A stretch of 48,848 bases of DNA from a virus. How positions within the stretch are numbered: the stretch's first letter is position 1; each line of letters begins with the position of its first letter. The translations under genes were made by a program, and so were the position numbers. The stretch is taken from IMG/VR virus record IMGVR_UViG_3300009093_000017, positions 1-48,848 of that record. One strand, 5' to 3'. This document shows, piece by piece, positions 5,121 through 45,039 of the stretch. The notes under the pieces are model-generated. The model did no database searches. It was not told the DNA's origin and was given only the letters and a program-made list of their open reading frames with translations.

Positions 5121-5497
5121 CTATCACAATAAAAACCGTTTCTCACAGTAATCAAAGGTACTGTACGGTCGGTGATTGGTCGTTCGATAAAAAGGGTAAT
5201 CTGACGATCAAAGTCTCAGATATGAAAAACAAATGGTATTTCTGTCTTGTAGCTATTCATGAACTTATAGAGGCAATTCTGTGCGAAAAAAGGGGTATTA
5301 CAGACGCTTCGGTTACGAAGTTTGACGAGAAATTCGAGAAGATCAGAACGTATCGAAACTACATGGACGAACCTGGCGACGAGCCTGATGCACCTTACGA
5401 GAACGAACACTGCATCGCTACAGGAATAGAGCGCACTTTTTGCTCTGCTTTAGGCATAAAATGGAAGCTTTACGAACGCGCTGTTAACGCTCTATGA
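5117..5497 (+). CDS. Hypothetical protein with HELIE motif
   Basis: Product of 126 residues, ATGA overlap with the preceding stop. It contains AIHELIEAILC around residue 50 and NEHCIATGIER near residue 97. The His/Glu pairs could bind metal, but no HExxH is present, so a peptidase call is not justified. Proteins of this look are common in phage head modules without known function. Confidence 0.7.
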   Translation: MTITIKTVSHSNQRYCTVGDWSFDKKGNLTIKVSDMKNKWYFCLVAIHELIEAILCEKRGITDASVTKFDEKFEKIRTYRNYMDEPGDEPDAPYENEHCIATGIERTFCSALGIKWKLYERAVNAL

Positions 5498-5841
5498 CCC
5501 TTCAGGAATGGCAATCCAACCCCAAGCTTTCCGAAGAACTTGCAAAGGTTCTAAAGCTCCCGGTATTGACCACTGCTATTGAGATAATTACAGGAATGAC
5601 TATGGCGAATACATTGAGCAGGAATCAGTTGCTTAATGTGGCCCAGAACGGACAGACGCTTTTTGGATACGACGTGGGAAGAGGAGACTTCCTCAAGGAT
5701 CTTCAGGCATTATCGGTACCGATAGAAGAGGTGGAACAACCAGAACCAGACTATATCGGAGAACAGACCTTCAAAAAAGAGTCAAAAGATGATATCGTAA
5801 GGATGCATCCTAAAGTTAAAAAGATCAAGAAAACTGTATGA
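5494..5841 (+). CDS. Hypothetical protein in head module
   Basis: Product of 115 residues, start overlapping the previous stop by 4 bases and stop overlapping the next gene. The N-terminal half is helical and the C-terminus is lysine-rich (KVKKIKKTV). No family recognised. It is translationally coupled between the HELIE protein and the scaffold-like protein. A 15/16 palindrome copy lies at 5710-5725. Confidence 0.65.
   Translation: MTLQEWQSNPKLSEELAKVLKLPVLTTAIEIITGMTMANTLSRNQLLNVAQNGQTLFGYDVGRGDFLKDLQALSVPIEEVEQPEPDYIGEQTFKKESKDDIVRMHPKVKKIKKTV
5710..5725. promoter_or_regulatory. Dispersed palindrome (15/16)
   Basis: TTATCGGTACCGATAG, with a KpnI-type centre. Inside the 5494-5841 gene. Confidence 0.8.
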
Positions 5842-7040
5842 GCGAACTCACCACAACAGCGCCAGCCGAACCTTTGGTTTCGGGAAGTCACGTAGCAGGA
5901 GCAGCAGGAACTGATTCCTACAAGGAACAGATCAAGCGCCAAACAGGAGGAGTAAAAGACAAGCAGATCAAGAGCTTTGCCGATCTGAATATCAAAAACC
6001 TTCCTGAAATGGATGAGAACCAACTAGCTGAAAAACCGGAAGATTTACTGGCTCTACAGAAGAAAAAGAGTGCGTCGGAAGTTTTAAGAAAACAAGAAAA
6101 ACAGCAGAATGTCCAGACCTCTGAGAAAAACGAAGCCCCTGAGAAAGAAGAAAATATCCTGGGAGAAATTGAAGACCTCACTTCTGGCAAAGCTGACAAG
6201 CCGGGCGCATCTGCAACTAAGAGCAAAGAGCTTAACTTCAAGGAACTTCGACAGAAAGCCGAAGCCGCAGAAGCCAGAGCCAGAGAGCTAGAAGAGAAAG
6301 AATCCTCTTATCAGGCCAAGCTCAAGGAAATGGAGGATACTCTGGAGAAGACTAACTTCGAAAGAAGCCCAAAGTTTCAGGAGAAGTATCGTGCTCCAAA
6401 GGAAGAATCAGAATCAGCTTTCAAGCAGTTCTCGAAGGATATTGCCGAGGACGAGAGCTTGGCGGATCGCGCTTTATCGTTACCGATAAAAGAGCGTATT
6501 GCCTTTATCGACGAGCATTTCGGAGGAGGAGCAGCCTCAGCAGAGGCACTGAGACTTGCAAACGATGTAGAGGCCAAACGAGGAGCTTACAACAAGGCTC
6601 TGGAAAAGGCACGCGAGACAGCTCTGGATCTGAAAGTCGAAGAGCAAAAGCAGGTAAAGAAATCGCAGGAAGACTTGCAGAGCAACTTCGACTCTGTATC
6701 CAGTCGTATTTCCGAAAGATTGTCCCTTTTCCGAAAGGGAAAAGACGACGATCACAATGCTCTTGTAGACAAGCGTATTTCACATGCTAGGGCTATTATC
6801 ATGGGGGATGCGCCTGAAGAGGATATTATGGTAGCTCCCTTCCTTGCGGTCATCGCCAAGGACGTGATTCAGGAGAACAACAACCTGAAGGCCGAGATCA
6901 AGAAATACAAAGATCGCGTTAAACAGGAAAACTCCTACGAACCTTCCATTAACGGAGGAGATACGGGAGAAAATGAACCTGTTGGCAAGCCTGTAGGTGC
7001 TATGGAAAGCATCAAAAGACAGCTTAAAGGCGTACGGTAA
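5838..7040 (+). CDS. Scaffold-like, coiled-coil protein
   Basis: Product of 400 residues, extremely rich in Lys, Glu, Ala and Gln, with a long predicted coiled coil around residues 120-175 and charged helices throughout. It has no recognisable enzymatic motif. Its position directly before the major capsid gene and its composition match capsid scaffolding proteins, which chaperone procapsid assembly and are then removed. The call is by context and composition. A strong terminator follows at 7057. A perfect palindrome site sits at 6474-6489. Confidence 0.7.
   Translation: MSELTTTAPAEPLVSGSHVAGAAGTDSYKEQIKRQTGGVKDKQIKSFADLNIKNLPEMDENQLAEKPEDLLALQKKKSASEVLRKQEKQQNVQTSEKNEAPEKEENILGEIEDLTSGKADKPGASATKSKELNFKELRQKAEAAEARARELEEKESSYQAKLKEMEDTLEKTNFERSPKFQEKYRAPKEESESAFKQFSKDIAEDESLADRALSLPIKERIAFIDEHFGGGAASAEALRLANDVEAKRGAYNKALEKARETALDLKVEEQKQVKKSQEDLQSNFDSVSSRISERLSLFRKGKDDDHNALVDKRISHARAIIMGDAPEEDIMVAPFLAVIAKDVIQENNNLKAEIKKYKDRVKQENSYEPSINGGDTGENEPVGKPVGAMESIKRQLKGVR
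6474..6489. promoter_or_regulatory. Dispersed palindrome (16/16)
   Basis: TTATCGTTACCGATAA, perfect match to the degenerate consensus, inside the scaffold-like gene where it reads as LSLPIK. Confidence 0.85.
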
Positions 7041-7056
7041 TTTCATTGCATAGAAT

Positions 7057-7103
7057 CCCGGAGGTGCGAGTTCGTTGTTTCTCGCAATACCTCCGGGGTT
7101 TTT
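7057..7103 (+). terminator. Rho-independent terminator after scaffold gene
   Basis: Arms CCCGGAGGTGCGAG (7057-7070) and CTCGCAATACCTCCGGG (7081-7097) pair with a small bulge, followed by a T run at 7099-7103. It isolates the terL-scaffold transcript from the capsid gene. Confidence 0.9.
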
Positions 7104-7106
7104 GTT

Positions 7107-7135
7107 TTGACAAACAACTTATTTTCTGAGATTAG
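7107..7135 (+). promoter_or_regulatory. Candidate promoter of the major capsid gene
   Basis: Perfect -35 TTGACA at 7107-7112, a 17-base spacer, and a weak -10 GATTAG at 7130-7135. It starts 4 bases after the terminator T run, as expected for an independent strong late promoter. The -10 is poor, so the exact start is uncertain. Confidence 0.5.
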
Positions 7136-7299
7136 TTACCTCGATGTAAGGCGAAGTCATCACGCCATAGAAAAGCGTAAGCAGAGATCGCGTCCTGCAA
7201 AACGAAGGTGTAACCGCTCGCTCACCTGGCGGAAACAGAGTCCTCGCTGTTGCAAGTGCAACGGGTTTTCGGGGATCAACTTTCAGTATTTAACTTTCT
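7136..7299 (+). other. Structured, non-coding leader of the major capsid mRNA
   Basis: Five short hairpins occur in a row: TTAC/GTAA (7136-7149), GGCG/CGCC (7150-7166), GCAG/CTGC (7181-7198), AGGTG/CACCT (7206-7227) and GTTGC/GCAAC (7249-7262, AAGT loop). The capsid ATG at 7300 has no Shine-Dalgarno sequence; an AT-rich stretch precedes it. The leader may set ribosome access or mRNA stability. It could be a known RNA class that I do not recognise. Confidence 0.45.
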
Positions 7300-8493
7300 A
7301 TGGCTATTGCATGTTCAACAGTTAATGATCTTTTCGAGAGAGAAACCGGACGTTTCTCAATCGATATCTGGGAAAGATATACCCAGGACGGCCCGTGGGG
7401 CCGACTAGTTCGGGTTGGAAAGTTCCCTCAGCAAATGGGAACGACCCTCACCGAAGAAACCATCGAGCGAATCCTTTCAGGAAACTTTGAAGATTCGTGG
7501 CCCTCTGTAGGTGTCTCGAACGGAGCTTCCTCAAACGGATGCCTTCCTGTCCCTATCAACCTTAACTTCGGCCAGACTCTTCGGACCTGGAATCTGCAAA
7601 CTCAGAGTTATCAGACTCCTTGCATCTGTCTGGATGACCTTAAAACTTCCTTCCAGATCGCAAGTCAGGTTGGAAAGACGGTAAACCAGCTCACCATGCT
7701 GACAAAGACGGTTCTCGATAACCACCGCAGGGCGGCTTATCTGAGCCTGGTCAATGTCGTTAGTGTGGGTAATGGAGTATTTGGAACAGAGTTTCCTTCA
7801 TCCTCGATTGCAGGAAACACGCTTCCGCCTCCTTCTGCTCAGCTCAGTCAGAGCCTTCTGGATCAGTATCGTATTCTGATGCTGAATAACGGAGCGGGTC
7901 AGGATGCTCTTGGTATGGAAAACGGCGCTCCGGTTCTCGGACTGATTATCGGTGCCGAGACTTCCTATCAACTGCTTATCAACAACGCAGATATGCGTCA
8001 GGACATCCGGTTTGCTACACCCAGCGAACTTGTTGCTCCCCTTGGAGTGGAAAGATCCTATCGTGGTTACTACCACATTTGGGATCCTGAAATTCCCCGG
8101 TATGACTATATCGGCGGGGTATGGATCCGGCGTTATCCGTTTGTTCAGGAATCAACCTCAAATGGATTTGCATGGAATCCTAATCCTGCATATTTCGCGG
8201 CACAATTCGAGCTGGGATATATCTTCCACCCGAATGTGTACGAGGAAGCAGTACAGCAGGTCGGACCTGATATTCCTGGAGCGCCATTCGACGACTATCC
8301 GTACTACTACAGCGGCCAGTTCTTCTGGCTTAACATCATTGATCCGGTCAATAACCCTCTGGGCAAGATCGGTCGCTGGATGGCTGTCTTCCAGAACGGA
8401 ACTCGTCCTATTGCACCTTACCTCGGTAAGTGCTTTATGTATCGCAGATGCCCTAACGATCTGCAATATGTGGGCTGCCAGTACTACGATTGA
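7300..8493 (+). CDS. Major capsid protein
   Basis: Product of 397 residues, preceded by the scaffold-like gene and expressed from its own terminator/promoter/leader unit. Composition is typical of a capsid shell protein: balanced, with many aromatic residues in the C-terminal half (YFAAQFELGYIFHPNVYEE and a YPYYYSGQFFW stretch) and no catalytic motif. HK97-fold membership is presumed from position and size, not shown by a motif. The start is the first in-frame ATG; it lacks a ribosome binding site. A weak palindrome copy (13/16) lies at 7946-7961. Confidence 0.75.
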   Translation: MAIACSTVNDLFERETGRFSIDIWERYTQDGPWGRLVRVGKFPQQMGTTLTEETIERILSGNFEDSWPSVGVSNGASSNGCLPVPINLNFGQTLRTWNLQTQSYQTPCICLDDLKTSFQIASQVGKTVNQLTMLTKTVLDNHRRAAYLSLVNVVSVGNGVFGTEFPSSSIAGNTLPPPSAQLSQSLLDQYRILMLNNGAGQDALGMENGAPVLGLIIGAETSYQLLINNADMRQDIRFATPSELVAPLGVERSYRGYYHIWDPEIPRYDYIGGVWIRRYPFVQESTSNGFAWNPNPAYFAAQFELGYIFHPNVYEEAVQQVGPDIPGAPFDDYPYYYSGQFFWLNIIDPVNNPLGKIGRWMAVFQNGTRPIAPYLGKCFMYRRCPNDLQYVGCQYYD

Positions 8494-8499
8494 TAATTA

Positions 8500-8554
8500 G
8501 CGGTGTAATGTGAAAACCCCTGCGGGTCGGGAAACTGATCCGCAGGGACACCGC
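8500..8554 (+). other. Two-tier RNA hairpin between capsid and next gene
   Basis: Outer arms GCGGTGT (8500-8506) and ACACCGC (8548-8554) enclose inner arms CCCTGCGG (8518-8525) and CCGCAGGG (8540-8547). No T run follows; instead the AGGAGGG ribosome binding site of the next gene starts a few bases later. It is more likely an mRNA stabiliser or processing site than a full terminator. Confidence 0.65.
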
Positions 8555-8572
8555 ATAAAAAGGAGGGATTGA

Positions 8573-8818
8573 ATGAAGTTTGAGATTCCCAAAGACTATC
8601 AGGCACCTGATGGCGTAAAAGAAGGAGAACCGTTTCAGGAGATGGCAACATTCTCGTTTGACGGCAAGCACATGACCCTTATCTCTATCGGAGAAGATGA
8701 AGCTCCAGTAGGGGAAGACGACGAAAAGAAGGAGATGAAAGAGTCCAAGAAGCCCAAGGGTGGAATTCAGGCAATCCGTGAACAGTTGAACGCAGGAGAC
8801 TCCGAAGGGGAGATGTAA
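8573..8818 (+). CDS. Small acidic/lysine-rich protein after capsid
   Basis: Product of 81 residues with a good AGGAGGG ribosome binding site. The N-terminal half looks like a small beta domain; residues 45-65 are a Glu/Asp/Lys-rich disordered stretch. No family recognised. It lies directly downstream of the capsid gene on the same transcript and may be a head accessory protein. Confidence 0.7.
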   Translation: MKFEIPKDYQAPDGVKEGEPFQEMATFSFDGKHMTLISIGEDEAPVGEDDEKKEMKESKKPKGGIQAIREQLNAGDSEGEM

Positions 8819-8824
8819 ACCCCG

Positions 8825-9520
8825 ATGCCTGCCAATGATTTCAAGATCTATATTAATCTCGACACCCTGACAGCAATTCAGGGAGTAGGGGTTTTAACGC
8901 CTGTAGACAGGCTATTCTTCGTCCGAGGTACTCAGCCTACCTTGGATATCGTTTTTCTTAACGGTGGAGTTACGCCGGTCCAGCTTCCAAATAACGGCAC
9001 TCTGGACATGCGGCTGGCAATCAAGCCACTTACAGGATTTGATTCGCAACCTTACGTTTATACGGAGGCATTTACTCAGCCTACGGGCATGGATACGGAT
9101 TATTTCGTTTCCCCTATTTTCGATTCTCCGCAGCTTTCTACGGATCTGGGTATCAATACGAACAACGTTTACGACAAGCAGTATGTGGATGGATGGCTTC
9201 AAATGTGGTGGGGAGTATTGGACGCTTATCCGAATAAAAACGTCTCTATCCTTGTTCGAATATTTAACGATGCAGTGCGGGGTACCGAGACAATACCTCC
9301 TCCAATCCCTCAGTACCCTCCGGCTGCGGATGTAGTCGCTGTAATTCAACAGGCTCTGCGGTGGGTTACTGCACCTGCAAACAGTTCGGATTTCAGCATG
9401 TTTCCCGGATCTGTGCATCCTACTCAGTACGAATGGGCAGCGATGGACAATCAGTACTTTTACAGCTTTAACTCGGCGACAGACACACAGTGGAGACGTT
9501 CTTGGAGGGCTATATTCTAA
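8825..9520 (+). CDS. Hypothetical virion protein
   Basis: Product of 231 residues, rich in Pro, Asn, Asp and aromatic residues, with the look of a beta-rich structural protein. It follows the capsid gene and precedes the tail fibre. The C-terminal sequence (QYFYSFNSATDTQWRRSW) is conserved-looking but unassigned. Confidence 0.65.
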   Translation: MPANDFKIYINLDTLTAIQGVGVLTPVDRLFFVRGTQPTLDIVFLNGGVTPVQLPNNGTLDMRLAIKPLTGFDSQPYVYTEAFTQPTGMDTDYFVSPIFDSPQLSTDLGINTNNVYDKQYVDGWLQMWWGVLDAYPNKNVSILVRIFNDAVRGTETIPPPIPQYPPAADVVAVIQQALRWVTAPANSSDFSMFPGSVHPTQYEWAAMDNQYFYSFNSATDTQWRRSWRAIF

Positions 9521-9534
9521 TCTAAGGACTTATT

Positions 9535-11547
9535 ATGGCAAACGGAGACATTCCATTTCTACAGGAAGAAAGCAGTGAATTCAGCGAGCTGAGGCTGCCT
9601 GCTGATGCGGCTACGTTTCGTGCAGCTCTTGGTGCTGGAACGGGATCTGTAACGAGCGTTGCTCTTACAATGCCTACAGGATTCAGTGTGGGAGGATCGC
9701 CAATTACCACGTCCGGAACCTTGGCTGTTACTACGGCTCTAAGTGGAATCATCAAGGGAACAGGATCAGGATTAACAACGGCTGTTTCAGGTACTGATTA
9801 TCTTCCAATTACCGGTGGAACTTCAGTTACAACTCTAGGAACCATTTCCGCTGGTACATGGCAGGGAACTCCTATTGCAACTACGTATGCAGGTCTGCCT
9901 ACAGGAGGAACATCAGGCCAGATCCTCAAGAAATCTTCGGCAACCAACTACGATACGGCATGGGTTGACCCCAGTACCGAGGCGCTGACCAGCGTAGGGC
10001 TGACTATGCCTACTGGATTCACAGTAACCGGATCACCTCTTACTTCCAACGGAACGCTTGCTGTTACGACTGCATTGAGCGGAATTATCACTGCAAATGG
10101 ATCCGCATTCAGTGCTATTACGCCCGGAACCGGAGTAACTTCAGCTCTTGCTCAGAACGTGACAGGATCAGGAGGAATTGTTCTTGGAACCTCTCCTACA
10201 ATTGTAACTCCAACAATTGCTGCCATTTCAAATCTGACAACGAACGGATTTGTAAAAACAAGTGCTGGAACTGGTACTCTGGTCATTGACACCAATACCT
10301 ACATTACAGGAAATCAGACGATTACTCTGAGCGGAGATGTTACGGGAAGCGGTGCAACAGCTATCTCTACAACTGTAGGAAAGATCAACGGAACTTCTCT
10401 TGCAGGGCTGGCAACAGGCATTCTAAAGAACACTACAGGAACCGGAGTTCCCTCTATTGCGGTTTCTGGAACTGACTATTTACCTATTACGGGTGGAACC
10501 AGTATTACGACGCTGGGAACCATTACAACCGGAACATGGAATGGAACGGTCATAGGATCTTCGTACGGAGGTGCTGGATCGGTATCCGGTGCACTTAAAG
10601 CCAATGGTTCAGGTGTCGTGTCTCAGGCTGCATCGACCGATCTTAGCAACAGCTCAAACATCCCTCTCCTGAACGCGAATAATGCATTCACCGGAAATAA
10701 TACAGTTACATCTTCATCAGGCGTTCCCCTAACACTTGTTAACACAGGAAGCGCGGCACTTGAGACATATTCAGACAATCAGCCGTTTGTTGCCAATTAT
10801 ACCGGGTTGGGAAGCTTTACGGGGGGAACCACTGTGACAGCCTGGTGGGCTAGTACGTCCGCTTCCCCAGGTTCTTATTCAGAGGTGTTCGATGTTATGA
10901 TCTCCCGGGGAGCGGGGGCTATTTCAGATGTTTATCTCTACTGTCGCAGCGGGGTGAATAATCTTTGGCTGACTCCCGGAGGAGGATCCCCGTCTGCCGG
11001 GTACATGCTCTCACAGTCACTTTTTGTTATTCCGTCTTCTGTGACTCTTTTTCTTGAAAGCGGTAATCTTAATTCCGACAGTGCCGCAATTAATATCCAA
11101 ACCGCTTCTTTCAACCTGACGGGCAAGACAACGAAGTATAATAACATTTCCACGGCCGGATGGGGAAGTCCTGCAATTTATGGTTATGGACGTTCATCGG
11201 CTCAGTCTGCTGCTGTTGCCAGCGTTGCTTCTTATACTGTAGGAGGTTCTGATGGAACATTCCTTGTGTCCGCAAACATTCTAGTTACCGCATCGGTTAC
11301 GAACAGTTTTACCTGTACCTGCACATATACGGATGAAGCAGGAAACTCCAGAACATTGACTCTTACCTTTTCAAACATTGGCGGAACACTTCTAAATACG
11401 ATCACGAATGTGACTGGAACCGGAGCATACGAAGGTGTTCCTCTTCATATTCGTGCCAAGGCTTCGACTTCTATTACTATTGCAACTACAGGCACGTTTA
11501 CTTCTGTCACTTATAATGTCGAGGGTGCAATTACTCAGATTGCATAA
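9535..11547 (+). CDS. Tail fibre/receptor-binding protein with Gly/Thr/Ser repeats
   Basis: Product of 670 residues. Residues 1-400 are low-complexity Thr/Gly/Ser beta repeats: LTMPTGF recurs at 44-50 and 156-162, TTALSGII follows each copy, and YLPITGGTS recurs at about 89 and 317. Such repeats build trimeric beta-helical phage fibres. The C-terminal 250 residues are non-repetitive and probably carry the receptor-binding or trimerising domain. An N-terminal 20-residue segment probably docks to the virion. Repeated segments make recombination or copy-number change likely. Confidence 0.8.
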   Translation: MANGDIPFLQEESSEFSELRLPADAATFRAALGAGTGSVTSVALTMPTGFSVGGSPITTSGTLAVTTALSGIIKGTGSGLTTAVSGTDYLPITGGTSVTTLGTISAGTWQGTPIATTYAGLPTGGTSGQILKKSSATNYDTAWVDPSTEALTSVGLTMPTGFTVTGSPLTSNGTLAVTTALSGIITANGSAFSAITPGTGVTSALAQNVTGSGGIVLGTSPTIVTPTIAAISNLTTNGFVKTSAGTGTLVIDTNTYITGNQTITLSGDVTGSGATAISTTVGKINGTSLAGLATGILKNTTGTGVPSIAVSGTDYLPITGGTSITTLGTITTGTWNGTVIGSSYGGAGSVSGALKANGSGVVSQAASTDLSNSSNIPLLNANNAFTGNNTVTSSSGVPLTLVNTGSAALETYSDNQPFVANYTGLGSFTGGTTVTAWWASTSASPGSYSEVFDVMISRGAGAISDVYLYCRSGVNNLWLTPGGGSPSAGYMLSQSLFVIPSSVTLFLESGNLNSDSAAINIQTASFNLTGKTTKYNNISTAGWGSPAIYGYGRSSAQSAAVASVASYTVGGSDGTFLVSANILVTASVTNSFTCTCTYTDEAGNSRTLTLTFSNIGGTLLNTITNVTGTGAYEGVPLHIRAKASTSITIATTGTFTSVTYNVEGAITQIA

Positions 11548-11548
11548 T

Positions 11549-11821
11549 ATGACTCATCCTTCAAAAATATCGGTAATTACAAGACAGACTTTAATTCCGA
11601 TAGGACTTCTTGGAATTATTGCATCCGGAATATGGGTAACTGCGTGGTCATATTTCGATATCAGTAACAGACTTCATAATGTGGAGGTTCAGATATCATC
11701 AAATAGATGGACCTATTACGAAATGTCGGATGCGTGGGAGGAAGTTCATACAAAAAATCCGGGATTTATTATTCCTGATTACGATAAAATACACAGAAAG
11801 TATCATCCCGGAAGTCCTTAA
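11549..11821 (+). CDS. Small single-pass membrane protein (lysis cassette)
   Basis: Product of 90 residues; the ATG at 11549 follows the tail fibre stop by 1 base. One hydrophobic segment lies at about 14-34, followed by a charged C-terminal domain. It could be an inner-membrane lysis accessory protein or a virion-linked membrane protein. No family recognised. Confidence 0.65.
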   Translation: MTHPSKISVITRQTLIPIGLLGIIASGIWVTAWSYFDISNRLHNVEVQISSNRWTYYEMSDAWEEVHTKNPGFIIPDYDKIHRKYHPGSP

Positions 11822-23832: not shown

Positions 23833-23983
23833 GAAAATAAAGTGTGATATTTGCGGTCGATTTATTTCCATTAAAGATCTTCTTAAGAATAAGGCCAAAA
23901 GAGTCTGTATTTCAGTAGATTCTGATTATTCCATAGAAGAATACGAAACCTTTTGTAAAAAGTGCAATAAATCCCATGACTGA
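23825..23983 (+). CDS. Small zinc-ribbon protein
   Basis: Product of 52 residues from the ATG at 23825. Two CxxC pairs (CDIC near residue 8 and CKKC near residue 46) suggest a single zinc ribbon. Overlaps both neighbours, as is typical of this operon. Confidence 0.55.
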   Translation: MSEKIKCDICGRFISIKDLLKNKAKRVCISVDSDYSIEEYETFCKKCNKSHD

Positions 23984-24758
23984 CACCATCGCAGACAAGA
24001 GTGACCTGCTTCCATGCCCATTTTGCGGTCAACAGCCCGAATGGAGACCTCAAATAGAAGATCCGGGGCGTAGTTCTTGGTGGCCTGAACATGTTCAGTG
24101 CAAAAGATGCAGAATTATTTTTAGAAAAGGAGAATACGGATGCGAAGACCCAATTAAACAGTGGAACAAACGCACAGAACCACGAAAGGAAGCGGAGACA
24201 CAAACAAATTGCTTCAAATGTAATTCGTCTGAGAATCTTTGTGAAGAACATACTGTTCCATCCGAAGGCAGCCGGGAATCAATAAAAGCTGCCAATATGC
24301 TTTTAAAGCATAAAGGAGAAACTGAAATTTTCTCTCAATCTGTAAATGAACCCACGCAGGAGCATCGGGAGTTTGCTGTTTGGGTTCAGGGTTCACCCTT
24401 GGGATCAGATTACACAGATTATATCGCTCGTGCATGTGCTAGGCGTTTCGTGCCGAGGAGTGAGTTTGAGAAGAATTTTAAGAATTGTCAGGAAATGCGT
24501 AGAGACATTCTTTCTCTCACTTCTGAAAGAAATCGTCTGAAACAGATATTTCTGCATGAGAATAAAGAACTCACCCGCTACCGGGAGTCACTGGAAGAAG
24601 TAAGCGATTATCTACATGATGGAATTGATGAAGAATCGCAAAAGCTTGCAAAGATCGTCCGCGAAGCCATTCAGCACACCGAGGAGAAGGAGAAATGCTC
24701 TTGTGCTCTTAGTGGTACTGAGAATTGCTCAATTCATGGAAAGGACAATATAGAATGA
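23976..24758 (+). CDS. Lar-like zinc-finger protein with coiled-coil extension
   Basis: Product of 260 residues. The N-terminus LLPCPFCGQQPEW...VQCKRC...WNKR has the pattern of the Lar (restriction alleviation) family. A second CFKC...C cluster and a coiled coil at about 165-215 follow, with a C-terminal CSC...C element. Lar proteins moderate host type I restriction, but the family signature here is only the zinc finger, so that function is tentative. Confidence 0.6.
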   Translation: MTDTIADKSDLLPCPFCGQQPEWRPQIEDPGRSSWWPEHVQCKRCRIIFRKGEYGCEDPIKQWNKRTEPRKEAETQTNCFKCNSSENLCEEHTVPSEGSRESIKAANMLLKHKGETEIFSQSVNEPTQEHREFAVWVQGSPLGSDYTDYIARACARRFVPRSEFEKNFKNCQEMRRDILSLTSERNRLKQIFLHENKELTRYRESLEEVSDYLHDGIDEESQKLAKIVREAIQHTEEKEKCSCALSGTENCSIHGKDNIE

Positions 24759-34312: not shown

Positions 34313-35313
34313 ACAATTTCACTCCATGATGGGGGTAGTTTCTTTGTTATGTCCAAGGGTGAGAATTTCTGTCCTTGTTTGGGTTCCTGAGTCTTTGCCC
34401 ATTCAGCCATTCTTTTCAATCCTGCAAGAAGAGGAATTCCTTTAATCATTGTTCCGAAATACTTCCTGACATTGTAGTGGTCGCAGTAAGCGTGTTGAAC
34501 TTCATTTCTTGCAGGAAGGTATTTGATAGGATGTGACGAGTCTCCCATGATTCCGCAGATCAGGATTGCCAGTTCATTTACCGAGCAAGGAACAGATCCT
34601 CCGATATTGAATGTTTGATTCCAGCATTCAGGAACATCAATACTCTCCGCGATAACAGGAGCAACGTCATCAATGTAAGAGAAGGCACGGGTCTGAGTAC
34701 CGTCTCCAAAGATGTTCAAAGGCTTTCCAAGCATGTGATTGTTCATGAATAGACCGATGACATTTCGATAAGGATCCGAAAGATTCTGGCGTTCTCCGTA
34801 AACATTGTGAGGACGGAAGATAACATACGGAAGTCCCCACATTTCATTTGCAGCCTTGAGGTCCATTTCGACTGAATACTTTGCGATACCGTAAGGATCG
34901 CAAGGATCAGGCTTCATATCCTCGTTAAATGGAGGCTTTCCGTGACCGTAAACAGCAATACTGGACAGGAATACAAAGCACTTTACGTCGGAGTTTACAG
35001 CACAATTAATCAGGTTGGTACTTCCAATCAGATTGTTGTTGTAGTTGTAGTTTCGAATGAAGTGACTCAGTCCTTCTGCGGCGTAGGCCGCTGCATGGAT
35101 GATGTAATCAATCTGGTATCGCTCAAAGAATTCGTTCAGTTTATGTTTGTCGCAGATATCCATCAGGATAAACATCGCTTCTTTGGGAACATTGTTTTCA
35201 TTCCCTCCGCTCAGATCATCCATTGCAAAGACAGTATGACTCTTTTTAACAAGAGATTCACAGATGTGACTTCCGATAAATCCTGCACCGCCTGTAACTA
35301 GAACTGTGCTCAT
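34309..35313 (-). CDS. NAD-dependent nucleotide-sugar epimerase/dehydratase
   Basis: Product of 334 residues, extended SDR. VLVTGGAGFIGSHICE (NAD loop, 5-20), FLSSIAVYG (catalytic Ser), PYGIAKYSVE (YxxxK) and a C-terminal sugar-binding region. Related to UDP-glucose 4-epimerases and GDP-mannose dehydratases. It supplies an activated sugar for the neighbouring glycosyltransferases. Overlaps both neighbours by 4-5 bases. Confidence 0.9.
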   Translation of the reverse strand: MSTVLVTGGAGFIGSHICESLVKKSHTVFAMDDLSGGNENNVPKEAMFILMDICDKHKLNEFFERYQIDYIIHAAAYAAEGLSHFIRNYNYNNNLIGSTNLINCAVNSDVKCFVFLSSIAVYGHGKPPFNEDMKPDPCDPYGIAKYSVEMDLKAANEMWGLPYVIFRPHNVYGERQNLSDPYRNVIGLFMNNHMLGKPLNIFGDGTQTRAFSYIDDVAPVIAESIDVPECWNQTFNIGGSVPCSVNELAILICGIMGDSSHPIKYLPARNEVQHAYCDHYNVRKYFGTMIKGIPLLAGLKRMAEWAKTQEPKQGQKFSPLDITKKLPPSWSEIV

Positions 35314-36866
35314 AAAACCCCCAGATTTTCTACTGCATCCTGAACTTTATCCACCGAAATTGAGTTAATGCAGTCCGGAGAGCAGTTCACAAACGTCTTG
35401 CCTTCCTCTCTGTGCCTTTTTCCAGAGCATTCAATAGAAGGATCCGCATCAATTCCAACGTGCTTGTCACTGTCTGTCATGATGTATTTCGCGTTTGTAA
35501 CCCCAAAAAGACCGATTGTAGGGCAGTTCATGGCCTGAGCAGCGTGCATCGGAAAGCTGTCCACTCCGATAAACAGGTTTGCCACCTTCATGATGGAACA
35601 GAGCTGATGTAGGGTTGTTTTCCCGGTCCAGTTGTATACTGACATGGGAATCTGTGGGTTCTTGGTGCCTACTGCTGCCACCTTAAACCCTCGAATAATC
35701 AACCAATTTGCCAGTTCTGCGAACTTTTCGTGAGGCCAGTTCTTTCCCGGCCAGTCTCCGTGATCCATATGCAGTACGCAGAGCTTGTCTTGAGGGGAGC
35801 AGATGGTTTCTTTGATCTTTCGGGCGAATATATCGTCCTGTTCACTGGGGAAGATATCCAGTTTCATCTTAACTTCCCCAAGTCCTGGGAGATATTCACG
35901 GGTTTGTTCCTCGTAAGCCTTGATAATATGGGTAAGAGGACGAGATTCGTAGGCTCCGTTCAAATCTATCGTTAACGAGTTTACGAGTTGGAACTGACCC
36001 CCTGCCTGACGGATGTTTTTGTTCCCGTTAAAGATCTGAGGGGTGTTCGTTTCCACATAAATATCGGAAAGAGGGTTGGATTCCTTGATTGCACGAACAA
36101 TAGGGGTAGTAAGAAGAACATCTCCGATGGCGTAATTCCTTCGTACAATGATCGGAAATCGGAAGTTACGAACTTTCAGATAGTGGGCCCATCTTTTCTT
36201 CAAAACCTCGTGATTTCGAGCCTGAGCAGCCTCACAGCGTACCTTTACTTCAGGCTGGGTCTGTACCGTCTCACCTCTTTTATGAGGCATGGTGAAGGAA
36301 ACACGTTGAATCTGGTATCCCTTCTCCTGCATACGAAGGGAAAGGTCTGAATCATCCCCGTAAATGAAGTCAAGATAGTCACTAAACAGAGGAGCGTATT
36401 GTTTAACGATAGAAACCTTCACGCATAGACAAGATCCCTCGACATATTCGTACCGAGGTCCGTCAAATCCATGCATGTTTTCGTGTAGAGAACAGCATGT
36501 TCCCGCAGGTCCGGTAAGCGCTACATTCTGATTCCCCTCCATTGGGGAGATGAGCATGTCAAGCCATCTACAGGTAGGAATAGTATCGTTGTTAAGTGCT
36601 ATGAAGTAAGTACTTACGTTATCAATAGCGAGTTGGAAAGCTTTGTTGTTTGGAGGGATAAATCCTTCGTTGGTTTCGTTATGAATGACTGTAACATTGT
36701 CATGCTGGCAACTAATCTGGTCAAAATACTCCTTGGTTCCATCCGTTGATCCGTTGTTTGTGAGGATAAGATGGAAGTCATGGCTGTTCTCGAAGATCGC
36801 ATCAATGCAACAGCGAGTGGATTCCAGTCGATTGAGTCCGATAACGGAGATTGTGAACTTACTCAT
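35310..36866 (-). CDS. Two-domain glycosyltransferase: GT2 fused to GT9
   Basis: Product of 518 residues. Residues 1-225 are a GT2 domain (ILTNNGSTDGTKEYF, ALNNDTIPTCRWLDML, FIYGDDSDLSLRMQEKGYQI); residues 230-518 are a GT9 domain (VRRNYAIGDVLLTTPIVRAI, HMDHGDWPGKNWPHEKFAEL, FIGVDSFPMHAAQAMNCPTIGLFG). The fusion would add two sugars in sequence. First enzyme gene of the island, overlapping the XRE regulator stop by 8 bases. A partial palindrome lies at 35966-35981. Confidence 0.85.
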   Translation of the reverse strand: MSKFTISVIGLNRLESTRCCIDAIFENSHDFHLILTNNGSTDGTKEYFDQISCQHDNVTVIHNETNEGFIPPNNKAFQLAIDNVSTYFIALNNDTIPTCRWLDMLISPMEGNQNVALTGPAGTCCSLHENMHGFDGPRYEYVEGSCLCVKVSIVKQYAPLFSDYLDFIYGDDSDLSLRMQEKGYQIQRVSFTMPHKRGETVQTQPEVKVRCEAAQARNHEVLKKRWAHYLKVRNFRFPIIVRRNYAIGDVLLTTPIVRAIKESNPLSDIYVETNTPQIFNGNKNIRQAGGQFQLVNSLTIDLNGAYESRPLTHIIKAYEEQTREYLPGLGEVKMKLDIFPSEQDDIFARKIKETICSPQDKLCVLHMDHGDWPGKNWPHEKFAELANWLIIRGFKVAAVGTKNPQIPMSVYNWTGKTTLHQLCSIMKVANLFIGVDSFPMHAAQAMNCPTIGLFGVTNAKYIMTDSDKHVGIDADPSIECSGKRHREEGKTFVNCSPDCINSISVDKVQDAVENLGVL

Positions 36867-38723: not shown

Positions 38724-39818
38724 ATGCCAGGACTAGACAAATTTCCAATCAGAAATACGGGTGGTGGCAATGTTTACAGCAATGCCATGCGACTTGCAGA
38801 AGCACGTAGACAGTTTCAGGAAAGACAGGATCTTCAAGAGCGAGAACAACAGCTTCGAGAAGCAAGATTTGAACAGTCTTCAAGCATCGAAGAAAGAAAA
38901 TCCATGCTTGATTCAGCCAAATTCTCTGAGGAAGCAAGGAAGAATTCCGTTCAGGAACAGCAGAGAGATCAGATTATCAAGCTTGCTCAGGAAAGAGACA
39001 AGACTCTCAATGCTCAGAGGCAGCTTCAGATTCAGGCAGAAGAGAATCAGAATAAGATTTCGCAGACTCAGGCTTCTCAGGTTACCGATGCATTAAAGGA
39101 TCTTGGAAAACTAGATCCTTCTGATGTCAATTACCGTTCAAAGGTTTTGGATATCCAGGCAAAGTATCCGTATCTGGGGATGGAATCCAAGAATGGATTT
39201 GAGAAGATCTGGCAGAATCAGGTGGACAAAGGACTTGAAGCGAATGCTTCTCATATCAAGTCAGTCGATGAATTTGCGAAGGCTCACGGAGTAAATCCGA
39301 TTTACAACAACGATACAGGACGAGCTGATTTTGAAGCCATGCAGAAGGTTGCGGATGACAGAGCAATGGCCGTTAAAGAACAATCCAGACAGGATCTTAC
39401 TTCCAAAGGACTCAATATAACTGGCGCTCAGGAAACCGAAAAGGGAACGGAATTGAAATTCGGTCAGGCTCCAAATCCTGACAAGGACTTCAAGTCCAAG
39501 TATCAGATTTCTCGTGCAGAGGCTTTCGCTCCCGATACAAAGATTGAGGCAGGAAACTTCAAGGACAATCAGTTTGTCAACGACGATAGCGGAACTCACT
39601 ATAAGGTTACTGCAAAAACTCCTACAGGTGTGCCTGTTACAGCCTTTGTTCCTAAAGACGAATACAATCAGTACAAAGCATCGTTTAATCAAACTGCTTC
39701 ACCTCAAGCATCTTCGTCTGAACAAGTTCCAGTTGATTCAGAATCTCCTGTTCAAGCTCAACAGCCTCAAGCTGCATCTCAAAAACCTGCCTTGGGAGAT
39801 ATTTTTGGAGGTAGCTAA
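38724..39818 (+). CDS. Coiled-coil internal virion/ejection protein candidate
   Basis: Product of 364 residues. Long coiled coil at about 20-130, rich in Gln, Glu, Arg and Ser; C-terminal 70 residues low in complexity (Gln/Ser/Pro/Ala). This composition and the position before the 1277-residue protein resemble ejection proteins of podoviruses. TAATG coupling to the next gene. Confidence 0.6.
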   Translation: MPGLDKFPIRNTGGGNVYSNAMRLAEARRQFQERQDLQEREQQLREARFEQSSSIEERKSMLDSAKFSEEARKNSVQEQQRDQIIKLAQERDKTLNAQRQLQIQAEENQNKISQTQASQVTDALKDLGKLDPSDVNYRSKVLDIQAKYPYLGMESKNGFEKIWQNQVDKGLEANASHIKSVDEFAKAHGVNPIYNNDTGRADFEAMQKVADDRAMAVKEQSRQDLTSKGLNITGAQETEKGTELKFGQAPNPDKDFKSKYQISRAEAFAPDTKIEAGNFKDNQFVNDDSGTHYKVTAKTPTGVPVTAFVPKDEYNQYKASFNQTASPQASSSEQVPVDSESPVQAQQPQAASQKPALGDIFGGS

Positions 39819-42800
39819 TGCCTTTCAATTACGATACTCTTGCCGCTGCAAGACAGGCGGGGTATAGCGACGAGGATATTTACTCTCATCTGTCGCAATC
39901 AGATACTCGATTTAAAACTGCTCAGGAATCGGGATATACTCTGGATCAGGTAGCAGATCATTTTACTCCAAAAACAGAGGATACTCAGAAAGATATTCCT
40001 CAAATCAAAGCCACGCCTGAAGAAGGAATGCTTTCCCATGCAGCGAGGGCAGTACGAGAATATCTTTCTCCCATTCTAGGACCAACAGAAGAGCAGAAGT
40101 TCCGAGAAGCTGTACCTGTACAAACAGACAAAGGAACCGAATACCAGTACAAGCCCTACGCAAACGATCTTGTCAGAGAGGGATTGCTATCTTCAGAAGG
40201 AGGAATTCTAGGAGGAAAAGCAGTAGGTGCATTGCCAAGAATTCCCCAGCAAAAGGGGACAGCAGCTCAAATCGGAGCAGGTATCGTCAATTCTTTGGAA
40301 GGAATACCTGAATTTATGGGATCTAGAATGGGTGCTGCAATGGCTGTTATGGCTCCATTTAAGGCATTACAGCGTGTTGCATCTGCCGGGTTTGGTGCAG
40401 ACATGCTCAGCTCGGTTCCTCAGCAGTACAAGGCTTTCAAAGACGCAAAAACCGTACAAGATAAAACTACCTCTCTTTTGAACTTAGGAAGTGCTATACT
40501 GTTTGGAAGTACAGCCGCAGCGCATGCTTCAGGAGTAGAACTTCCCAAGCTTGGAGACCAAACAGCCAAGCAAATCATCGAAAATACTCCTACGGATACA
40601 TTGCAAATCGCGGCAAATGATCCTGAATTCAGGAAAACATGGCAGTATAATCCCAAACTTATGGATCAGGAGCTTCAAAAAAGAGAAGGCTCCGATTTAT
40701 CTCAACAAGCAAAGGCGAATGATTTACCTTTAACCGCAGAACAGATACCTAAAGGAGGTGAACAGAATGAACAACTGGGCAAGTCAGAAACCGGCGATGA
40801 TCGCCAGAGGGGACGAGTATCCGACGAACAAAACGGATTACGAACTCAAGAAACGGATTCCGGTACCCGAACACAACGCACAACCGAAGATCGCGGAAGT
40901 GGGGGGAAAGAAGAAAATGCTGGGGAACTGCTAGTTCCTCCAACACCTGAAGGAGGTGAAACACGTGAAGAAGATGAAAAAAACCAAGCTGACCAAAGTA
41001 TCCAAGCCGAACAACGCGGTAGTGTACAAGAAGCCGGGCAGCAAGCCGGGCCGGGGCAAGTAACCCAGCAGCCTCCCGCCGTTCAACCCGAAGGGGGGAC
41101 TGCCTTATCGTTAACGATAAACGAAGGAGAACAAAATGCCACTCAAGAAGGGCAAAAGCAAGAAGGCGTTCAGCAGCAACGTGCGAGCGGAAGTGAAAGC
41201 GGGCAAGCCGCAGAAGCAGGCGGTAGCGATCGCGTACTCAATGCAGCGCAAGGCCAAGAAGCGCCGAAAGTAGTAGCCGCCACTTATACCGATCCGAATA
41301 CAGGTCAAGTATTCGAGGGAAAGAACCATATCGAAGCCGCCTCAAAGGCGGGGGTAACTGCACCTGAAGAACGTACTGCAAGGGAAACTCCTGAGTACGG
41401 ATTCAAGACAAGCGACGGAAACTACATTTCCAGAGAACAGGCTGCTAAAGTTGCGATACAGGCAGATCAGATAAAGGAACAACCGGAAAGAGGACAGCTT
41501 CATTCCGATCAGTTAACCTTTGGATTCGACGAATCCAAGTCTCCTACAAGCCTTAGAAACAAGGTTGTCGATCAAGAAAGAATCGAACGAGGACTTCCAG
41601 CTGCCTTTACAGAAGGAAAGAGAGACTTCGGTCAGGTATGGGAAGATGCCACTAAAGCGATAGATCAGAATCCTGCGTATCCTCATGAGTTGGTTAAAAG
41701 CCTGAAAGAGAAGCCACGAGAGATTTCCGACAAGGAAAACGCAGTACTTCTCCATCATCAGATTGACCTTCAAAACGAGTACGACAAGGCTATTAATGCC
41801 TCTGTAAAAGCGTACTCAGAAGGAAATGAAGGACTGGCAGAAGAGAATCGGATCCGTTCTTCTTACCTCAGCGACCAGCTTCTTGACCTGTACAACGTAG
41901 GAAAGAAAGTAGGAACAGAGACAGCCAGAGGTTTGAATGCAAGAAAGATGCTCGCAAACGAAGACTTCTCCCTTGCAAGGATGATGACAGAGAGAAGAGC
42001 TGCTTTGGGCGGTGAAAAGCTTACTCCTGAACAGGAAGAAGAAGTCAAAAAGTTACATGACAAGATTCAGGAAACTCAGAAGAATTTCGACGATTACACC
42101 AAGAAAAAGACTCCTTCTCAGGAATCTCTCCTTAAAGGATATAAAACAAGATTAAAAAGACGTACTGCCGAGCTGGAATCAAAGCTTGAAACAGGCGATT
42201 TATCGGTACCAGAAAGAAGAAAGCTTGCTTTGGATGATGAGGCTCTTCGTCTAAAAGCAGAAAACGAGAGAGCAAAAGAATCATTTGCGAGAGCCCTGTA
42301 CAAGGACCGTCAGAAACAACGTACACCTTTGGAGAAAGTTCAGGATACTCTGGTGAAATGGAGGCGTGCTTTCATTCTTTCCAGCCCTGTTACTCTGGCA
42401 AAACTAACATCCGCAGCAGGAGAGAGGATGATGTTTACCCCTGCTGAAGAGCTTGTGGGTGCAGGAATATCAAAGCTTATCCCTGAAGTAGCAAAGAGAG
42501 CACCCAGAGAAGGCGGTCTAAATGCAAGATCCGAGGCGAAGGCTATTACCGAGGGTTTCACCAAAGGTATGAAGGATGCATGGAAGGTGCTTACTACTGG
42601 TAAAAGCGATCTGGACGCCCTTTACGGAAAGAAAAACGTCGTTCCTAACGAAGCAGTGGACTTCATGGGAAACATCCACGGAGCGCTTAAGACTGTAGCA
42701 AAGAGGAATGAATTTTCTAGGTCATTCGAGAAAAGAATGAGCCATGCCATCGCAAACGGAGTGGATGTATCAGACCCCTTGGTCCAGACTAGTATAGCAA

Positions 42801-43651
42801 CCTCAGCATACAAGGATGCTCAGAGGTCTATTTTCATGCAGGATAACAGGGTTGTAGGGATGTATAAACGTGCATTGTCCGCGCTCGACCAGCCCGACAA
42901 GGAAACAGGAAGAATACCTGTATCAAGCAAGGTAGGAGGTACGGCATTAAGAGTGCTTCTTCCTATCGTTAAAGTTCCTACAAATATCGTTGCCGAGACT
43001 CTTCAGTATGCAACAGGACTTGTTACAGGATCAGCTCGTCTGGCATTCGCAATGCGAAGAGGAATAGAAAATCTCAAGCCCGGAGAGGCTGATCTTATCA
43101 TGCGGGATTTGAAGAAGGGAAGTCTTGGAGCTGCGGCACTTACTCTTGGGTATCTTAATCCGAATACATTTGGGGGATATTACCAGCCAGGACAAAAGAG
43201 AAAAGAAGGAGACGCCAAAGTAGGGGCTGTAAAACTCTACGGTCACAATATCCCAAGTTATCTGGTTCACAACCCTCTTCTGGAAGCGTTGCAGATTGGA
43301 GCTACTATTCGTCGTGTATCAGACTCAAAACTCAGACGAACCGACACTGAAAAACAGGGGCTTGGAATGGGAATACTTGCAGCATCTATCGGACTTGCTG
43401 AAGAGGTTCCGTTTGTAAATCAGATGGATCAGGTTGCAAAAGTGTTTACTCCACAACAGAGATCAGAATACTTTGGAGAACTTGGAAAATCTCTGTTTGT
43501 TCCTTCTCTTGTTCAGTTTGCAGCTCAGCAACAAGACAAAAATACCAAGGGAGAAGTCAATAAACGATATCCAAAAACTATATTACAGGGTATTGAAACT
43601 GGAATACCTGTCTTAAGAAAGAAAGTACCTCTTTCAAGAAACGCACGATAA
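39818..43651 (+). CDS. Large (1277-residue) internal virion/ejection protein with overprinted linker
   Basis: Residues 1-310: a globular/helical N-part starting with MPFNYDTLAAARQAGYSD. Residues about 312-486: a highly polar Glu/Gln/Gly/Ser/Thr/Pro linker, read from DNA that also encodes three small genes in another frame. Residues 490-1277: a long helical part with a coiled coil at 690-780 and a C-terminal region of hydrophobic helices (VLLPIVKVPTNIVAETLQYATGL) resembling large polyvalent phage proteins that are ejected into the host. No enzymatic motif was identified. Confidence 0.7.
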   Translation: MPFNYDTLAAARQAGYSDEDIYSHLSQSDTRFKTAQESGYTLDQVADHFTPKTEDTQKDIPQIKATPEEGMLSHAARAVREYLSPILGPTEEQKFREAVPVQTDKGTEYQYKPYANDLVREGLLSSEGGILGGKAVGALPRIPQQKGTAAQIGAGIVNSLEGIPEFMGSRMGAAMAVMAPFKALQRVASAGFGADMLSSVPQQYKAFKDAKTVQDKTTSLLNLGSAILFGSTAAAHASGVELPKLGDQTAKQIIENTPTDTLQIAANDPEFRKTWQYNPKLMDQELQKREGSDLSQQAKANDLPLTAEQIPKGGEQNEQLGKSETGDDRQRGRVSDEQNGLRTQETDSGTRTQRTTEDRGSGGKEENAGELLVPPTPEGGETREEDEKNQADQSIQAEQRGSVQEAGQQAGPGQVTQQPPAVQPEGGTALSLTINEGEQNATQEGQKQEGVQQQRASGSESGQAAEAGGSDRVLNAAQGQEAPKVVAATYTDPNTGQVFEGKNHIEAASKAGVTAPEERTARETPEYGFKTSDGNYISREQAAKVAIQADQIKEQPERGQLHSDQLTFGFDESKSPTSLRNKVVDQERIERGLPAAFTEGKRDFGQVWEDATKAIDQNPAYPHELVKSLKEKPREISDKENAVLLHHQIDLQNEYDKAINASVKAYSEGNEGLAEENRIRSSYLSDQLLDLYNVGKKVGTETARGLNARKMLANEDFSLARMMTERRAALGGEKLTPEQEEEVKKLHDKIQETQKNFDDYTKKKTPSQESLLKGYKTRLKRRTAELESKLETGDLSVPERRKLALDDEALRLKAENERAKESFARALYKDRQKQRTPLEKVQDTLVKWRRAFILSSPVTLAKLTSAAGERMMFTPAEELVGAGISKLIPEVAKRAPREGGLNARSEAKAITEGFTKGMKDAWKVLTTGKSDLDALYGKKNVVPNEAVDFMGNIHGALKTVAKRNEFSRSFEKRMSHAIANGVDVSDPLVQTSIATSAYKDAQRSIFMQDNRVVGMYKRALSALDQPDKETGRIPVSSKVGGTALRVLLPIVKVPTNIVAETLQYATGLVTGSARLAFAMRRGIENLKPGEADLIMRDLKKGSLGAAALTLGYLNPNTFGGYYQPGQKRKEGDAKVGAVKLYGHNIPSYLVHNPLLEALQIGATIRRVSDSKLRRTDTEKQGLGMGILAASIGLAEEVPFVNQMDQVAKVFTPQQRSEYFGELGKSLFVPSLVQFAAQQQDKNTKGEVNKRYPKTILQGIETGIPVLRKKVPLSRNAR
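40767..40934 (+). CDS. Overprinted small gene A
   Basis: Product of 55 residues (MNNWASQKPAMIARGDEYP...KKKMLGNC) in a frame different from the surrounding 1277-residue gene. It has a near-ideal AAAGGAGGTGA ribosome binding site (40751-40761) 6 bases upstream of the ATG. Composition is normal for a small basic protein, while the host frame is disordered here. Function unknown. Confidence 0.65.
   Translation: MNNWASQKPAMIARGDEYPTNKTDYELKKRIPVPEHNAQPKIAEVGGKKKMLGNC
40965..41063 (+). CDS. Overprinted small gene B
   Basis: Product of 32 residues, extremely basic (MKKMKKTKLTKVSKPNNAV then VYKKPGSKPGRGK), same alternative frame as gene A. GTG start with GAAGGAGGTGA upstream; an ATG at 40974 is the alternative. 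Probably nucleic-acid-binding. Confidence 0.6.
   Translation: MKKMKKTKLTKVSKPNNAVVYKKPGSKPGRGK
41105..41120. promoter_or_regulatory. Dispersed palindrome (16/16)
   Basis: TTATCGTTAACGATAA, the fully symmetric copy. It lies in the gap between overprinted genes B and C, 15 bases before the ATG of C. Confidence 0.9.
41136..41273 (+). CDS. Overprinted small gene C, conserved-type basic phage protein
   Basis: Product of 45 residues starting MPLKKGKSKKAFSSN, then VRAEVKAGKPQKQAVAIAY and a basic tail KAKKRRK. The MPLKKGKS...HAGKPQKQAVAIA pattern is one I recognise from independent small genes in many phages. Same alternative frame as A and B; AAGGAG (41124-41129) precedes the ATG. This is the best evidence that the block is truly coding in this frame. 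Confidence 0.8.
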   Translation: MPLKKGKSKKAFSSNVRAEVKAGKPQKQAVAIAYSMQRKAKKRRK

Positions 43652-45039
43652 TGCCTAAAGAAGAAAAAGATCCGAGATTTCCTCAGCCGCCAGCGAATGT
43701 CGGAGTTCCCCAGTACCCTACTCCTGACGTACCGGACTTCATTACGAAGATAGGGCACATTGTCCTTGTAGAGAAACACTCTACAGAAGGAGGAGGATAC
43801 ACTCCTTTGCCTTTGGACGGATCAGTAACCTACAAAGAGGCTGATGCAAACAAGTGGCCCAGTCCACTTTATCTTGTCTCCGAACGAGTAAGTCAGGATG
43901 GAAAATGGGTTATCAGATTCTGGGCAAACGACCGATCTGCGCGGTCTCAGGACGTATGGAACTATGCTCTTCAGTTCAGTGGAGAAGCAACTTCGTTTCC
44001 GATATATATCAGGGAGTACATTCTTCCAAGAGTAGGATATCAGAGACTTCCTGAACTCACTCCTGACAGCGCAAACGCAAATGCACTACTTGTTAAAGAA
44101 GACATGCGGGAGCTTCCTGACGAGGATCCTCTCAGGTCCAGATACGTCAAAGTGGTGCGAGTATTTGAAACACTCCCCGGTCCATTCTTGACCAGCACAA
44201 GGATTGATTTTGACGGAATGGTAGTGACTGAACAAAGGAGAAAGAACGTCCTTGCAAATATTGCAGTAGGAGAAACCTTGACTGGATCCGCTCCGAATCA
44301 GACATGGATGCAGATTACTTCCGAGCCGGTTACAGACCTTGTAGGATGGGAGGTTAGAATCTCAAGGACTCTCGTAGGAAATGTGGTTGAAGATTTCGAA
44401 GAAGATCGAGAAACCTTCGCTGTAATCACCATCCAGAAACAGCTTGTTACAAATACTTACACTCCAAATACAAGTGCGGGAGTTGAAGATTACGTAAAGT
44501 CCATTACAAAACTGAAGTCTCTTCGTATCACAAGAATCATTAATGGAGGCACCCCTCCTTCTGCGTGGGACTCTCACGAACTGATTCAGTACGATTTTCC
44601 CTGTCTTGTATTCGGTGCCAGTGCAGCATTTATTTCCACTCTGGATGGGAACGAGTTTGGAAACATCAACCTTATCCGAAACGCCGTACGAAGGAAATAT
44701 GCACAATCTCGCATTCATGTGCAATATGCAGCATCTCCCCCTACTCCTACTTCATGGACGATTGTCAATCCTCAGGATTTGATTTATCAGGGTATTTTCT
44801 TCAATCTGTCCGAGAGATATTGTCTTACCGATTCTTTCAATATAACCTTCAATACAGCCAGTAATAACCCGATCTGGGGATTTGTTTCAGAGAGTGTTGC
44901 TATTGCAGCAAGCACTCCTTCAGCGACAACATACCAAGGCTGGGTAAATGCAGGCACTGAGATTGTAATCGGATCCAAGGTGGAAAGGTGGGGATTTAAT
45001 CTATGGCGGATGACAACAACGTACGTGGTAGCACAATAG
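43651..45039 (+). CDS. Hypothetical virion protein
   Basis: Product of 462 residues, TAATG-coupled to the large protein. Beta-rich, with Pro-rich N-terminus. No family recognised; probably a tail or head-tail protein by position. Confidence 0.6.
   Translation: MPKEEKDPRFPQPPANVGVPQYPTPDVPDFITKIGHIVLVEKHSTEGGGYTPLPLDGSVTYKEADANKWPSPLYLVSERVSQDGKWVIRFWANDRSARSQDVWNYALQFSGEATSFPIYIREYILPRVGYQRLPELTPDSANANALLVKEDMRELPDEDPLRSRYVKVVRVFETLPGPFLTSTRIDFDGMVVTEQRRKNVLANIAVGETLTGSAPNQTWMQITSEPVTDLVGWEVRISRTLVGNVVEDFEEDRETFAVITIQKQLVTNTYTPNTSAGVEDYVKSITKLKSLRITRIINGGTPPSAWDSHELIQYDFPCLVFGASAAFISTLDGNEFGNINLIRNAVRRKYAQSRIHVQYAASPPTPTSWTIVNPQDLIYQGIFFNLSERYCLTDSFNITFNTASNNPIWGFVSESVAIAASTPSATTYQGWVNAGTEIVIGSKVERWGFNLWRMTTTYVVAQ

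Follow-up and report, generated by a model that had tools for sequence, protein, structure and literature searches.

Evidence for recurrent reuse of a disordered linker in a large phage gene family as a site of small genes nested in the +1 frame

Background

To our knowledge, same-strand nested genes in double-stranded DNA phages are known mostly as single pairs, Rz/Rz1 being an example. The small gene Rz1 of phage lambda is embedded in the +1 frame of Rz, and embedded spanins in general, which lie in the +1 or -1 frame and form one functionally linked pair, are often left out by gene callers (PMC6139136). A literature search covering few subscription journals found no host gene family that serves again and again as the site of unrelated small genes in a single frame, and no earlier report of nesting within polyvalent or internal virion proteins.

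The locus described here comes from an uncultivated phage, the IMG/VR virus record IMGVR_UViG_3300009093_000017, which has 48,848 bases (hereafter the window). Three small genes, A, B and C, lie within one of its large ORFs (the host gene) and are read in another frame.

Methods

Direct searches of viral contigs and phages with the host protein and with A were without result. The family was opened by a DNA pattern for the motif GGYYxxGQKR of the C-terminal domain (C-domain) of the host protein, which yielded nine relatives, and an alignment-based scan then yielded 80 host-gene loci, with 30-58% C-domain identity to the window. Together with the window they make up 81 loci; clustering at 80% identity gave 65 lineages. 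The host gene turned up in no isolate phage, an alignment scan of bacterial genomes gave no relative, and a pattern scan of genomes gave 47 stretches. The ATP-grasp-like gene at position 3840 was also tried as a route to kin, and reached only distant phages.

The +1 ORFs of different host lineages were compared all against all, and eight groups came out in which conservation is higher for the nested protein than for the host residues encoded by the same DNA. A profile of C was searched within 10 kb of the 80 relatives, and matches with E < 1e-5 were considered convincing. Substitutions were compared by codon position in the pairs L210/L212, L213/L216 and L184/L206, all of them relatives, the window having no close one. 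The probability of an open host frame was computed from each nested protein and the phage's own or local codon usage.

Results

The locus and its host protein

The features of the window are listed in Table 1. The host protein consists of a hydrophobic N-domain (aa 1 to about 290) with an N-terminal motif, a disordered linker (about aa 290-575) rich in Glu, Gln, Gly, Ser and Thr, and a helical C-domain (about aa 575-1277), over which relatives are 34-56% identical. The conserved N-terminal motif, which starts with MPFN in the window and in L213 and goes on with AR-GY-D--IY-HL-QSD-RF, precedes the nested genes, nested A of L213 included, so that they are truly inside the gene. The short domain that follows C in the host frame matches phrog_839 with E 3.2e-6 at host aa 509-567.

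Table 1. Positions of the host gene, the nested genes and other features of the window
Feature	Position	Strand	Remarks
Host ORF	39818-43651	+	1277 codons, open throughout, no internal stop
Shine-Dalgarno of A	40751-40761	+	AAAGGAGGTGA; 9-nt match, spacing 6
Gene A	40767-40934	+	55 aa; host frame +1
Shine-Dalgarno of B	40949-40959	+	GAAGGAGGTGA
Gene B	40965-41063	+	32-35 aa; GTG 40965 or in-frame ATG 40974; host frame +1
Shine-Dalgarno of C			CGAAGGAGA; well spaced
Gene C	41136-41273	+	45 aa; phrog_2423; host frame +1
phrog_839-like short domain	41275-41520	+	host frame, directly 3' of C; host aa about 486-567
Gene following the host ORF	43651-45039		
Adjacent gene pair	3840-5497		426 aa (ATP-grasp-like by eye) and 126 aa
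260-aa protein	23976-24758		starts with a Lar-like restriction alleviation domain
518-aa protein	35310-36866	-	GT2 glycosyltransferase N-terminus and GT9 (heptosyltransferase) C-terminus in one polypeptide

No Pfam family, curated LPD and enzymatic domains included, scored above cut-off in the window protein or in five relatives, and fold searches in the PDB returned nothing meaningful for either C or the host C-domain. An AF2 model of host aa 738-1277 is all helical (pLDDT 85) and has 34 matches with E <= 0.001 in BFVD (best E 6.5e-11), among them LPP-associated proteins, PolyVal ADP-ribosyltransferase proteins and, from cyanophages and a Pelagibacter phage, 'internal virion proteins'. On the strength of these model matches we would call the host gene product a large polyvalent/internal-virion-type protein, 'type' and not 'member' because it carries no Pfam LPD or enzymatic domain. 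It is presumably a virion or ejection protein, and the late-type operon position of its gene is suggestive, at most, of packaging in the virion.

The next gene downstream has a conserved counterpart in the distant relative L214 (11653-12843), with PRFPxPPxxxGVPQYPTPxVPDF in common, so that the neighbourhood is kept. The large gene of L214 is itself split into two overlapping ORFs in different frames (5392-9447 and 9419-11653), by a sequencing error, a real split or a programmed frameshift. Further away in the window, the pair encoding the 426-aa and 126-aa proteins is conserved in L025 and L103, the L025 relative of the 126-aa protein having a HELWE zincin-like motif, and the ATP-grasp-like gene adjoins the large gene in L108 and L110.

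The nested genes A, B and C

A preliminary description of this DNA had placed three small genes in one alternative frame of the 1277-residue ORF, each behind a strong Shine-Dalgarno, and this was confirmed; the spacing is good upstream of all three. Other points of that description held as well. The nested stretch is more G+C-rich than its flanks (0.53-0.57 vs 0.44-0.47), the host frame reads there as a disordered, permissive linker, with 10% order-promoting residues (aa 318-486) vs 24-27% in the flanking domains, and C resembles a gene that stands alone in other phages. Read from their sequences, all three products are basic, B very much so, and none has a lipoprotein signal.

The phrog_2423 profile matches C with E 9e-21 over residues 1-44 of 45. 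C agrees with that family in sequence, in length and in the start motif MPLKKGKSKK...KQAVAIAY, and the N-terminal MPL, N15 and the GKPxxQAxAIA core, which are invariant or nearly invariant columns in two alignments, are all present. In an AF2 model (pLDDT 85) C is predicted to form a two-helix hairpin with basic ends (helices 9-21 and 26-43).

An HMM of nested A from L210, L212, L213 and L216 has window A as its top match among all window ORFs (E 5e-4; E-values for proteins this short are modest), and all-against-all BLAST groups window A with the nested A of other lineages. Window B was not found by an HMM of the B-like genes from relatives L210-L216, nor was any homologue of it detected; it is counted as a gene because of its Shine-Dalgarno, its position in the cassette and the kept-open host frame. 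Judged from their sequences, A, B and C are probably all translated in this phage.

Stand-alone relatives of C

The C family was found in 383 phage records, and in the records examined C stands alone near terminase, portal, MuF or head-protease genes. At no stand-alone locus does C lie inside a comparably long ORF, the longest alternative frame across it being <=190 codons. In Pbunavirus it has a MuF-type head gene on one side and the head maturation protease on the other, and carries the annotation 'virion protein'; PHROGs lists phrog_2423 as of unknown function, with 'virion protein' solely as an annotation in phage Ab28. The head maturation protease of Obolenskvirus-type Acinetobacter phages itself starts with a C-like segment (L095 3001-4338, L096 3001-4353), a possible hint of a head-targeting role. 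C may thus be a small head-associated basic protein, and we tentatively propose for it a role in head assembly or as a packaged protein.

Nesting recurs across the host gene family

Nested small genes were found in 29 of the 65 host lineages and belong to at least eight families, all of them in the +1 frame, whereas the +2 frame gave no conserved nested group among the 65 lineages. The preliminary description, right in taking the nested genes to be real, had missed this recurrence in the same frame.

Convincing C matches are present at 16 of the 81 loci, window included; all lie inside the host ORF in the +1 frame, the host frame is open at every one of them, and none was found outside the host ORF within 10 kb of the 80 relatives. 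Nested C is the most widespread nested family (10 host lineages). The first case beyond the window, G003, came from a whole-record search; its C, preceded by AGGAGGT, sits in the linker of a host that is only about 43% identical. A is nested in L210, L212/L215, L213, L214 and L216, and B-like genes come after it in several of these. Further families occupy linkers elsewhere, namely DUF6496 (Pfam E 7e-10), a phrog_16759-like family (best E 1.3e-6) and a phrog_32268-like gene. The arrangement varies too, A/B and C lying in separate linkers in L210-L213 and in one shared linker in the window, and A and B preceding the N-domain in L213 and coming after it in the window.

An 87-aa +1 ORF with AGGAGG in the large gene of L171 (2191-2454) looks folded, has weak PHROG matches and is possibly a further nested gene. 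The Lys/Ala-rich +1 ORF at 1248-1379 of L025, in the low-complexity linker of a distant large gene, is without a Shine-Dalgarno; it could be due to chance and was not counted.

Origin of the nest

Nested C is scattered over a tree of the 81 C-domains, whose supported branches force at least 4 changes, and the window's nearest relatives, L139, L141 and L148, have no recognisable nest. Repeated entry and loss of nested genes is the history that we favour, and the order of events would have run from stand-alone to nested. A single ancient nested C followed by many losses would leave double coding unchanged, and it would account for the same frame and linker position everywhere as well as for the wide spread of C. 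We nevertheless consider it rather unlikely: nested C is scattered on the host tree, the nearest relatives are without a recognisable nest, unrelated families occupy the linker in other lineages and C stands alone in L025 and L092, although losses could explain this pattern.

As to how the nest arose, the preliminary description had offered two possibilities. Insertion into a permissive linker fits. The other, in which a block of small genes with its spacers became the linker that fused two neighbouring virion genes, is very improbable, even though C stands just downstream of the large gene in the distant L025 and L092. N-domain, linker and C-domain already form a single ORF in relatives without a recognised nest (L146, 1099 aa; L139, 1258 aa; L138, 1840 aa), so the halves were not joined by small genes, and the separate linkers of A/B and C in L210-L213 also speak against such a fusion.

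Within the history of repeated entry and loss, we lean towards the linker being an exchange site, at which unrelated ready-made genes are inserted, swapped and lost in one fixed frame while the host stays intact. If this is true, acquired genes turn the host frame into new disordered sequence, the reverse of classical overprinting.

Both frames are maintained

In 148 of 211 homologous +1 pairs the nested frame shows the greater similarity of the two frames; the same is true of 1 of 32 pairs in +2. Shadow homology was considered as a source of the conserved nested ORFs and was ruled out by this two-frame identity comparison with its +2 control.

Substitutions between L210 and L212 fall at host positions 1/2/3 in the numbers 35/18/6 in A+B+C and 140/85/649 elsewhere (p 2e-24). 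Since the nested third position is the host first position, change in this pair follows the nested frame. Only the segments covering A and B show the nested-type pattern, C alone having five differences (3/1/1). The nested-frame pattern is also seen, more weakly, between L213 and L216 (p 7e-7), and C of L184 and L206 differs by just four changes, too few for the comparison (p 0.4). Host-frame stops, looked for at the nested C loci, were not found, and the small frames looked for in relatives are conserved, which favours the dual coding proposed in the earlier reading.

Given the nested protein and the codon usage, an open host frame has a probability of 0.0003 for A, 0.0047 for B and 0.020 for C. 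T makes up 0-0.07 of the nested third positions in these three genes vs 0.20-0.27 expected, and is absent from those of B; the open-frame probability is low for nearly all nested genes, and T at their third positions (T3) is strongly depleted. The same gene family standing alone provides a matched control: in 75 stand-alone C genes T3 is 0.191 vs 0.207 expected, and 5 are open in the host-equivalent frame vs 3.0 expected. A foreign, GC-rich codon usage was judged an unlikely cause of the T3 depletion, as the stand-alone C genes do not have it.

These figures also bear on the possibility that the small genes alone are real, with a host frame open by chance and two halves that are separate proteins or a decayed gene. 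GC-rich, T3-poor genes do leave the host frame open more easily, and 5 of the 75 stand-alone C genes are open in it. This reading is nonetheless highly improbable: besides the low open-frame probabilities, there is no stop from 39818 to 43651, so that a ribosome initiating at the conserved N-terminus has to read through, every convincing nested C locus has an open host frame, and relatives without recognised nests have one continuous ORF.

Of the 31 conserved nested starts, 19 have a Shine-Dalgarno and 12 are without one; among the 1414 remaining +1 ATGs of these genes, 99 have one (p 3e-14). A nested MP(L/F)xSKxQ family in L159, L164, L163, L172 and L198 lacks Shine-Dalgarnos, unlike most nested genes, and these five loci are perhaps from phages of hosts that do not rely on them.

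It is scarcely credible that the host protein alone is real and that the three small frames are shadow ORFs of its low-complexity linker, for although such linkers yield long open alternative frames and the set holds 1137 +1 ORFs of 25 aa or more, C matches phrog_2423 closely, conserved families are more identical in the nested than in the host frame where shadow pairs show the opposite, substitutions track the nested frame and Shine-Dalgarnos are enriched at nested starts.

Discussion

As far as sequence comparison can establish it, this locus family displays double coding, upkeep of the host frame and recurrence, together with selection on the nested frame in the relatives. The host linker is very probably a recurrently reused site for genes nested in the +1 frame, with both frames maintained.

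In the mechanism that we propose, a single late mRNA would be read in two ways. Ribosomes starting at 39818 would read frame 0 throughout and make the 1277-aa protein with its disordered linker, while others would begin at the Shine-Dalgarnos inside the gene and produce A, B and C. Selection on its own amino acids would keep the nested frame, and the host frame would be kept there mainly open and disordered, the linker tolerating almost any open polar sequence. Avoidance of T at synonymous nested third positions would remove every TAA, TAG and TGA from the host frame, because host stops start with T and nested position 3 is host position 1. With a +2 arrangement, host stops would hinge on constrained nested positions, hence the use of +1 in every conserved case. 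There has probably been turnover of small genes on several occasions, some entering the linker, some disappearing from it and some giving way to others.

Gene callers disfavour overlaps, so nested genes of this kind are likely to be missed in standard annotation. Here a single host gene family accommodates numerous unrelated nested genes, the frame is constant and selection can be seen in either frame. This makes it testable whether long overlaps form by acquisition of whole genes or by de novo birth, what accounts for the use of one frame and how a disordered linker can tolerate nesting.

Three kinds of known systems invite comparison. The host protein is like the polyvalent and LPP-associated proteins (Iyer et al. 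2017, PMC5512222) in being large and multidomain, in lying near virion genes and in having a variable middle, and the structural matches of its C-domain join it to LPP-associated and internal virion proteins. Unlike polyvalent proteins, the window host has no Pfam LPD or enzymatic domain; a word search of the main text of that study (Iyer et al. 2017, PMC5512222) did not find 'overlapping'. The nested C of the window also departs from the 75 stand-alone phrog_2423 loci and the annotated records, where the family is a separate gene, with short end overlaps at most, or an N-terminal domain.

The closest likeness in arrangement is with Rz/Rz1. The window genes, too, lie wholly inside a larger phage gene, in its +1 frame, with starts of their own and dual coding, and purifying selection on the nested frame, as for an embedded gene of the lambda Rz1 type, is found in the relatives L210/L212 and L213/L216. 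Unlike Rz/Rz1, the products in the window are small basic proteins and not lipoproteins, the part of the host that they overlap is the disordered linker of a virion-type protein, and at least eight families of small genes share one host gene family and one frame.
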